From contig QBUV01000094.1 in the NCBI GenBank assembly GCA_013572355.1, positions 1 to 34,601 of the forward strand: a stretch of DNA of 34,601 nt, in the 5' to 3' direction. This stretch comes from Candidatus Methanogaster sp. (GTDB lineage: Archaea > Halobacteriota > Methanosarcinia > Methanosarcinales > Methanogasteraceae). The position numbers were made by a program, and so were the translations under genes. This document shows, in pieces, positions 5,791 through 7,101 of the stretch (position 1 is its first letter; every line of letters starts with the position of its first letter). Under the pieces are notes generated by a model. The model saw only the letters and a list, made by a program, of their open reading frames with translations. It had not been told where the DNA came from and ran no database searches.

Positions 5791-6438
5791 TTATCCCTTC
5801 GCATCGATTAGACGCTTTGGGTTCGTCCTGACCGCGGCTACGCAATCGCGCTCAGTCAGTCCTGCCCCCATCGCCACCGTAAGCGCCATCTCTTCAGTGA
5901 TCAGATCGTCTGGTGCGTGCGCATCTGTGTTCACGATGAGATCGCATCCGATCTCGCACGCAATCCGAGCAACATACCCGTTCGTCCGGTTGTGTCCGCA
6001 TCTTGCCGTGATCTCGAGCAGTACGCCATTTTCGCGTGCGCATTCGACCTCATCGGTGGTGATCAGTCCGGGATGCGCCAGAATGTCGATGTCCGACCGA
6101 AGTGCAGCAGCATTCGTGCCCGGAGCCACAGGTTCTGACGTGGTCTCGCCGTGCACCACGATGATATCAGCGCCAAGCGACCTTGCTTTATCTGCAAGCC
6201 GCGCAATCTTTCCGGGCGGAACATGCGTCAGTTCCACACCAGTTAGGACTCTGATACCCCATTCCTCCTCCAGAAACGAAGTCTTTTTCATTGCGTCCAG
6301 CACAAATTCGATGTTCGTAAAATCGACGTGATCCGTGATCGCAATCGCAGAATAGCCATGCACCACTGCACGGCGGACGAGTTCGCTCGGTATCAGTTCG
6401 CCGTCGCTGAATATAGAGTGGGTGTGCAGGTCGATCAT
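5791..6438 (-). CDS. PHP-domain metal-dependent phosphoesterase (histidinol-phosphatase-like)
   Basis: The 215-residue protein begins with the PHP signature MIDLHTHS (metal ligands H5 and H7). It continues with ITDH (34-37), GVEL (67-70), a central HPGLI and a closing NTDAHAPDD, so all four PHP motifs are present. PHP proteins hydrolyse phosphate esters using a trinuclear metal site; the exact substrate cannot be told, and histidinol phosphate is only one option. The frame is open to an ATG at 6477, but a TATA box (TGCTTATAGG, 6461-6470) lies inside that extension, centred 27 nt before the ATG at 6438. I therefore place the start at 6438 and infer a leaderless mRNA. It lies downstream of SRP19 on the same strand with a hairpin between them. 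Confidence 0.82.
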   Translation of the reverse strand: MIDLHTHSIFSDGELIPSELVRRAVVHGYSAIAITDHVDFTNIEFVLDAMKKTSFLEEEWGIRVLTGVELTHVPPGKIARLADKARSLGADIIVVHGETTSEPVAPGTNAAALRSDIDILAHPGLITTDEVECARENGVLLEITARCGHNRTNGYVARIACEIGCDLIVNTDAHAPDDLITEEMALTVAMGAGLTERDCVAAVRTNPKRLIDAKG

Positions 6439-6460
6439 CACAGATATCTGGGGTGCGAGA

Positions 6461-6470
6461 CCTATAAGCA
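6461..6470 (-). promoter_or_regulatory. TATA box of the PHP gene
   Basis: On the minus strand TGCTTATAGG is centred about 27 nt before the ATG at 6438. This predicts initiation at or next to the start codon and decides against the longer start at 6477. Confidence 0.5.
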
Positions 6471-6511
6471 TTCCCATAAGCGCAGGTTGGTCAGCAGACC
6501 GGAAACGTCAA

Positions 6512-6548: not shown

Positions 6549-6842
6549 TTAATTAGCGGATCGTAGCTCCTTCATCTTCGAGCAAACCTCATAGAGAATC
6601 GAGGATTTTGGAGCGTCTGTCTTCTTTACGAGCACCCGTCCCTGTTTCTCCCACCATGCCGCAGGATGCGCCTTCGTATCTTCGACAGCGCAATCGAGAT
6701 TGAGCATTCTGGCTGCTTCTGCGATCTCATCGAGCCGCGGCGACTTCACAGCACTCCGCCTCGAGACCCTGCGCCCACCGTTTCTCGATATCCTGCTGTC
6801 GAAATAGATGGGCCAGATAACGATCCTGTCTGTTTCTGGCAT
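6549..6842 (-). CDS. srp19: signal recognition particle 19 kDa protein
   Basis: This 97-residue protein matches archaeal SRP19, which binds the tips of helices 6 and 8 of 7S RNA so that SRP54 can join. Family landmarks are IVIWPIYFDSRISRNGGRRV (about 8-27), the following SRRSAVKSPRLDEIAEAA, and HPAAWWEKQGRVLV in the second half. The length is typical for archaea (90-100). Its ATG lies only 4 nt after the 3' end of tRNA-Tyr on the same strand, leaving no room for a promoter or a ribosome site. The gene is therefore probably co-transcribed with the tRNA and freed by tRNA 3' processing, or it is read from an mRNA starting within the tRNA. Confidence 0.9.
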   Translation of the reverse strand: MPETDRIVIWPIYFDSRISRNGGRRVSRRSAVKSPRLDEIAEAARMLNLDCAVEDTKAHPAAWWEKQGRVLVKKTDAPKSSILYEVCSKMKELRSAN

Positions 6843-6846
6843 AAAA

Positions 6847-6957
6847 TCCCGCCTCCCGGAATCGAACCGGGGACATCGCGGTCTCTGCGCGGTAATGTGT
6901 GCTTTCGCACATGATCATACTACAGCCGCGCACTCTACCAGGCTGAGTTAAAGCGGG
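6847..6957 (-). tRNA. tRNA-Tyr (GTA) with a 37-nt intron
   Basis: The 111-nt gene folds as a tRNA: acceptor CCCGCTT/AGGCGGG with discriminator A, D stem ACTC/GAGT, anticodon stem CGCGG/CCGCG, a 5-nt variable loop, and T arm CCCGG-TTCGATT-CCGGG. The anticodon is GTA, and the C1-G72 pair is the archaeal tyrosine identity element. An intron of 37 nt (6883-6919) lies after G37. Its ends form a bulge-helix-bulge: CTGT (6922-6925) pairs with GCAG (6885-6888), flanked by 3-nt bulges AG|T and AG|A that are cut at the standard position. Removal gives a 74-nt tRNA. No CCA is encoded. The intron carries a GTGC-GAAA-GCAC tetraloop hairpin. Confidence 0.93.
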
Positions 6958-7101
6958 TTATATAGAGTGGTGCCGCGGCCTTTATCAATCTTTTGTTTCT
7001 GGCAGTATCTCCGAATCAGCATGAATCCGCAAAAATATTGGAACACATGAGTTGTGTCAGCGAGGAGTTTTCCATGCACCGCAGCACTGGAGTTCGCAAA
7101 A

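Follow-up and report, generated by a model that had tools for sequence, protein, structure and literature searches.

In the methane-oxidising archaeal family Methanogasteraceae (ANME-2c), a number of protein-coding genes, that of the secretion protein SRP19 among them, begin within a few nucleotides of the 3' end of a tRNA gene. These genes are probably expressed from dicistronic RNAs driven by the tRNA promoter and cut by RNase Z after the discriminator base, which would leave near-leaderless mRNAs at seven or more junctions specific to the family. The anatomy of the loci, their conservation, the promoter position, the family-specific excess of junctions and the presence of an RNase Z gene together point to co-transcription, in vivo cleavage and leaderless translation.

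The tRNA-Tyr/SRP19 pair described here lies on a stretch of 34,601 nt of Candidatus Methanogaster sp. (contig QBUV01000094.1), referred to as the window; the assembly to which it belongs is called the window genome. The coordinates of the features are collected in Table 1.

The tRNA-Tyr/SRP19 Locus

An earlier note on this DNA had placed the SRP19 start codon 4 nt after the 3' end of tRNA-Tyr, and the sequence, ARAGORN and Pfam bear out both the coordinates and the reading. With introns allowed, ARAGORN reports tRNA-Tyr(gta) at c[6847,6957]; the gene has the cloverleaf, the GUA anticodon and the C1-G72 pair that identify a tRNA-Tyr, its mature product measures 74 nt and CCA is not encoded. It was recovered neither by the default ARAGORN scan nor by Rfam at the gathering cut-off because of the intron, which is conserved in the orthologues of Methanogasteraceae, GoM-Arc1 and Methanoperedens. 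The intron placement by ARAGORN differs from that in Table 1, being 26 nt long and reached via pairing with an intron copy of CCGCG. Read 5' to 3' on the minus strand, the acceptor strand AGGCGGG is followed by the discriminator A (6847), TTTT (6846-6843) and ATG (6842-6840).

The start of SRP19 is well supported, since no in-frame ATG, GTG or TTG occurs 5' of this ATG before a stop codon is met and no alternative in-frame start occurs 3' of it ahead of the conserved IWP motif. Residues 8-91 of the protein match positions 1-93 of the Pfam profile PF01922 (87.7 bits, cut-off 25) and residue 3 is aligned to position 5 of NCBIfam PRK00754; the score of 103.7 lies under the stricter NCBIfam equivalog cut-off of 112. 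The PHP-domain gene on the 3' side of SRP19 was considered as RNase P subunit p30 and this assignment was rejected, the protein being a histidinol-phosphatase-like PHP according to NCBIfam.

Table 1. Features of the tRNA-Tyr/SRP19 locus (positions in the window) and tRNA-gene junctions of the window genome
Feature	Position or junction	Strand	Basis or remark
PHP-domain gene (histidinol phosphate phosphatase-like), 3' of SRP19	5791..6477	(-)	NCBIfam PRK06361, E = 8e-95
SRP19 coding sequence, 97 aa	6549..6842	(-)	PF01922, E = 9.5e-25
Spacer TTTT, 4 nt; SRP19 mRNA 5' end predicted at 6846	6843..6846	(-)	Sequence
Pre-tRNA-Tyr(GUA)	6847..6957	(-)	ARAGORN with introns; sister-family orthologues with near-identical intron
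GGAGG, Shine-Dalgarno-like, in T-stem/acceptor strand of tRNA-Tyr, 9 nt before ATG	6852..6856	(-)	Base-paired in predicted precursor fold
tRNA-Tyr intron, 37 nt, 3' of position 37	6883..6919	(-)	Boundaries deduced from mature cloverleaf
Candidate BRE/TATA-type promoter of the tRNA-Tyr/SRP19 unit, CAAAAGATTGATAA	6982..6995	(-)	Motif score and conservation
tRNA-Ala(TGC) - 3-dehydroquinate synthase II (DHQ synthase II)	2-7 nt junction		Window genome
tRNA-Gly(GCC) - ArgH	2-7 nt junction		Window genome
tRNA-Met(CAT) - nucleotidyltransferase-like protein	2-7 nt junction		Named by reading sequence, no NCBIfam match
tRNA-Arg(TCT) - JAB/Mov34-like protein	2-7 nt junction		Named by reading sequence, no NCBIfam match
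tRNA-Cys - RIO kinase	2-7 nt junction		Window genome
tRNA-Gln(CTG) - glutamyl-tRNA synthetase (GluRS, gltX)	4 nt junction		G000:C205
tRNA-Tyr - SRP19	4 nt junction		Window

Conservation and Origin of the Junction

Conservation of the tRNA-Tyr/SRP19 order had been proposed as a check on the arrangement, and it holds in 13 of the 13 Methanogasteraceae genomes in which both genes were found. The SRP19 ATG lies 4-5 nt 3' of tRNA-Tyr in all of them, with the spacers TTTT (n = 5), TTTA (n = 6), TTATA (n = 1) and CTATA (n = 1). Four further genomes of the family without an SRP19 match are also without the 3' end of tRNA-Tyr, as expected if one locus has been lost from incomplete assemblies, which the Methanogasteraceae genomes compared are. 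Outside the family no tRNA was found 5' of SRP19 at about 54 SRP19 loci inspected (some records counted twice). A scan of 394 genomes across the phylum for the pattern T-arm..ATG..TGGCC gave no clear second SRP19 junction among the matches listed, most of them chance matches, the pattern being too loose to exclude one. On the upstream side, CobY-like and aldolase genes are conserved in the window's genus and were not found adjoining SRP19 in the other genera of the family tested, though the tRNA-SRP19 junction is kept there. Judged by this distribution, the junction is not due to chance.

The simplest history of the junction is a single origin in the ancestor of Methanogasteraceae, since the orthologous tRNA-Tyr genes of GoM-Arc1 and Methanoperedens share the acceptor strand and carry an almost identical intron, with SRP19 located elsewhere; in Methanoperedens a T-run follows the tRNA. 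The SRP19-PHP order is also found in the Methanothrix, Alkanophaga and Methanoperedens loci and, on this comparison, predates the junction, the origin of which would have brought tRNA-Tyr next to an old SRP19-PHP pair in the family ancestor.

A Family-Specific Set of tRNA-ATG Junctions

The junction pattern extends beyond the pair to which the earlier note was confined and is genome-wide. Seven of the 41 tRNA genes found in the window genome are followed, after 2-7 nt and on the same strand, by the start codon ATG of a real gene (Table 1). The starts of DHQ synthase II, ArgH and GluRS are real, since their NCBIfam matches begin at profile residues 2-3. tRNA-Leu(CAA), with an ATG at +2, was dropped from the set, the reading frame being 74 aa long and having no family match.

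An ATG-initiated reading frame lies 0-10 nt 3' of the tRNA in 7/41, 6/38 and 4/32 cases in three Methanogasteraceae genomes, and in 0/40, 0/46, 0/42 and 1/43 cases (1/171 in total) in the four genomes that make up the tRNA-level comparison with sister families. Comparing the window genome with the four sister genomes, Fisher's exact test gives p = 4.5e-5; with the three family genomes pooled, where orthologues are counted more than once, the value is 7e-7. On these counts the tRNA-ATG junctions are a family-specific set with at least seven members in Methanogasteraceae. The sole case in the sister families is a tRNA-Ser(GGA) of Methanoperedens (G056), located 6 nt before a 185-aa membrane-protein-like reading frame.

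The spacing is also maintained at individual junctions. It is exactly 4 nt between tRNA-Gln and GluRS (TTTT, TTCG, TTTG) in 15/15 family genomes with a readable N-terminus, and 2-5 nt between tRNA-Ala and DHQ synthase II in 14/14 family genomes, while in most sister genomes inspected DHQ synthase II lies directly 3' of another reading frame instead. In one family genome (G016:C18) the tRNA-Ala before DHQ synthase II carries an insertion, probably an intron, and the junction is kept. Archaeal GluRS charges tRNA-Gln with glutamate, so the enzyme and its substrate tRNA would share one transcript.

Ordinary compaction of the genome would give a different account of these loci: the tRNA terminator was lost, the next gene came close by chance and its mRNA arises by read-through, with nothing special in the spacing or the processing. 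In keeping with this, genes often lie 11-80 nt after tRNAs in Methanogasteraceae too, and a T5 run is found downstream of few tRNAs of the window genome (4/41). However, a sister family is equally poor in T5 runs (5/46), yet it is without the junction pattern; starts in the three family genomes cluster at 0-10 nt after tRNAs (7, 6 and 4) and not at 11-20 nt (1, 1 and 3); and spacers hold at 2-5 nt over four genera while their letters change. Compaction on its own is therefore an unlikely explanation.

Proposed Formation of the mRNA 5' End by tRNA Processing

The window genome encodes a full RNase Z (G000:C11:274-1161, 367 bits). The enzyme from Methanolobus psychrophilus, which belongs to the same order, cuts CCA-less pre-tRNA 100% at the bond just 3' of the discriminator; it tolerates introns, requires the 5' end to be mature and was assayed with trailers of up to 150 nt, cleavage being reduced at 150 nt (PMC7479834). 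According to the preferred explanation, tRNA-Tyr and SRP19 would constitute one transcription unit driven by the tRNA promoter, in which RNase P would trim the 5' end of the tRNA first and RNase Z would then cut 3' of the discriminator base 6847. CCA could then be added to the freed tRNA-Tyr, and the SRP19 mRNA would begin with a 5'-monophosphate and a leader of 4 nt (p-UUUUAUG) and would be translated as a leaderless message. Across at least seven junctions, tRNA 3' processing would thus be the step that forms the mRNA 5' end, with leaders of 2-7 nt.

The earlier note had suggested that RNase Z creates a leaderless SRP19 mRNA, and the suggestion has gained in substance: the product to be expected is an mRNA whose leader measures 4 nt, since the RNase Z gene is present and the enzyme of a relative cuts after the discriminator, co-transcription and cleavage being the parts deduced from the genomes. 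tRNA-Tyr abuts the reading frame, so that a tRNA cut would form the mRNA end. If the cut falls at 6847/6846, the SRP19 start is 4 nt from the predicted 5' end, within the leaderless limit of 8 nt or less, and the UUUU leader holds no Shine-Dalgarno sequence. The fold predicted for the processed 5' end leaves the leader unpaired, along with the A and the U of the start codon, whose G is paired. An mRNA with a 5'-monophosphate end may be unstable, which would be a point against this explanation.

The 3' strand of tRNA-Tyr contains the word GGAGG, which the earlier note did not mention and which could in principle support translation of the uncut RNA. The dicistronic transcript would then be translated as such, with GGAGG (6856-6852), at a workable spacing from the ATG, serving as Shine-Dalgarno sequence; opening of the acceptor/T-stem would be a precondition for SRP19 synthesis, and folding of the tRNA would compete with translation. 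However, GGGAGGCGGGA is identical in the tRNA-Tyr of GoM-Arc1 and Methanoperedens, where SRP19 is not downstream, which suggests that GGAGG was inherited and not selected; since it is, in addition, base-paired in the predicted fold, it is probably incidental. Nor does any Shine-Dalgarno match longer than 3 nt precede the ATG in six of the seven tRNA-gene pairs, tRNA-Tyr being the exception, and translation of the uncut RNA is considered very unlikely. Among 50 unambiguous Methanogasteraceae starts sampled, about a quarter (13) have a Shine-Dalgarno word; leaderless translation may be common in the family but not universal.

The earlier note had also raised the idea that regulated processing of tRNA-Tyr sets the output of SRP19, which would be an addition to RNase Z cleavage and not an exclusive alternative to it. 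The leaderless end cannot form unless the RNA is cut, and in archaea RNase P has to act before RNase Z (PMC7479834). Against such control, unrelated partner genes (ArgH, DHQ synthase II, RIO kinase) stand behind other tRNAs in the same way. As a rule, tRNAs are also processed constitutively. A controlling role of tRNA maturation in SRP19 synthesis, although possible, is not implied by the anatomy, which co-transcription behind a tRNA promoter explains without invoking control, and it is simpler to suppose that genes able to cope with leaderless translation have captured a strong promoter; regulation of this kind is very unlikely.

Promoter Position

The regions 5' of 103 tRNAs in three family genomes yielded a promoter motif, CGAAAccTTTATAT, which mostly lies 38-52 nt before the tRNA. 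Its match at tRNA-Tyr scores 12.2 bits, in the top quartile, and is located 38 nt 5' of the tRNA in a region where an AAA..TTGATAA block is conserved across Methanogasteraceae. Within tRNA-Tyr the best score is -0.5 bits, below the mean of shuffled sequence. At the sequence level the locus has a single promoter 5' of tRNA-Tyr and none for SRP19, as in a dicistronic unit, which agrees with the earlier claim that neither a promoter nor a ribosome site fits between the tRNA and the ATG. A promoter of SRP19's own inside the tRNA gene or its intron, which would leave the adjacency without a functional role, is very unlikely: archaeal promoters are short and archaeal transcriptomes often show internal starts (PMC4247193), but motif scores inside the tRNA of the window genome are below those of shuffled sequence and the other tRNA junctions would require seven independent hidden promoters.

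In a small sample of 50 unambiguous Methanogasteraceae ATGs, TATA-like matches peak 31-35 nt before the start codon, as would be expected where messages are leaderless. Abutting the 5' end of tRNA-Tyr, the window genome has another AT-rich word, CTCTATATAA (6958-6967), which is not conserved in the family; the conserved promoter lies further upstream.

Relation to Known Systems

A close parallel is the tRNA punctuation of animal mitochondria (Ojala, Montoya and Attardi, 1981, cited in PMC10941002). As outlined in the latter source, tRNAs abut reading frames there as they do here, and cuts by RNase P and RNase Z set the ends of mRNAs that are leaderless or nearly so, as proposed for Methanogasteraceae. 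Set against that outline, the junctions described here differ in that they lie on a normal archaeal chromosome, with one promoter per tRNA unit, and concern a minority of tRNAs; the mRNA is on the 3' side of the tRNA only and there is no polycistronic whole-genome transcript.

Among archaea, RNA-seq of Thermococcus kodakarensis indicates apparent co-transcription of a tRNA-Lys located in the 159-nt 5' UTR of TK0306, a long leader without an abutting start codon or a family-wide set (PMC4247193). In Nanoarchaeum equitans a cut by RNase Z after a tRNA gives the RNA that follows its 5' end, as in the present proposal, and a tRNA half is fused to an mRNA before valyl-tRNA synthetase; in contrast to the junctions described here, a C/D sRNA is released or the tRNA half is kept as 5' UTR, and no leaderless mRNAs result (PMC3491384). 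Leaderless mRNAs with their own promoters, as in Haloferax volcanii (PMC4983044) and T. kodakarensis (PMC4247193), have the start codon 0-8 nt from the 5' end, as proposed here, but that end is the transcription start, whereas in Methanogasteraceae it would be a monophosphate processing end. Plant dicistronic transcripts also unite a tRNA and an mRNA in one RNA; they are eukaryotic and their proposed role is RNA mobility, not the formation of leaderless 5' ends (PMC8166872). In the open-access literature no report was found of a family-wide set of tRNA-ATG junctions in an archaeon, nor of the arrangement in ANME.

If confirmed, tRNA punctuation, usually seen as mitochondrial, would operate on a normal archaeal chromosome, and leaderless mRNAs would have a second route of formation, by an endonuclease cut that leaves a monophosphate end instead of by transcription start. 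RNase P and RNase Z would then be required for the expression of essential genes, GluRS and SRP19 among them, and the way in which gene starts are called and promoters predicted in ANME genomes would be affected too. The proposal makes a sharp prediction, a 5'-monophosphate end at one base (6846). More tentatively, cutting at tRNA 3' ends might have become a standard means by which Methanogasteraceae form mRNA 5' ends (SRP19, GluRS, DHQ synthase II, ArgH, RIO kinase and others), the flux of tRNA synthesis or processing helping to set expression; this would amount to mitochondrial-style tRNA punctuation in free-living archaea.

Other Genes Downstream of tRNAs

Apparent tRNA-maturation genes also sit close 3' of tRNAs in the window genome. 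A Trm56-like protein is encoded 54 nt 3' of tRNA-Ser(CGA) and a Cgi121-like (KEOPS) protein 33 nt 3' of tRNA-Ser(GGA), both named by eye, and an ATG-initiated reading frame begins 118 nt 3' of tRNA-Thr(CGT), on the same contig as the RNase Z gene.
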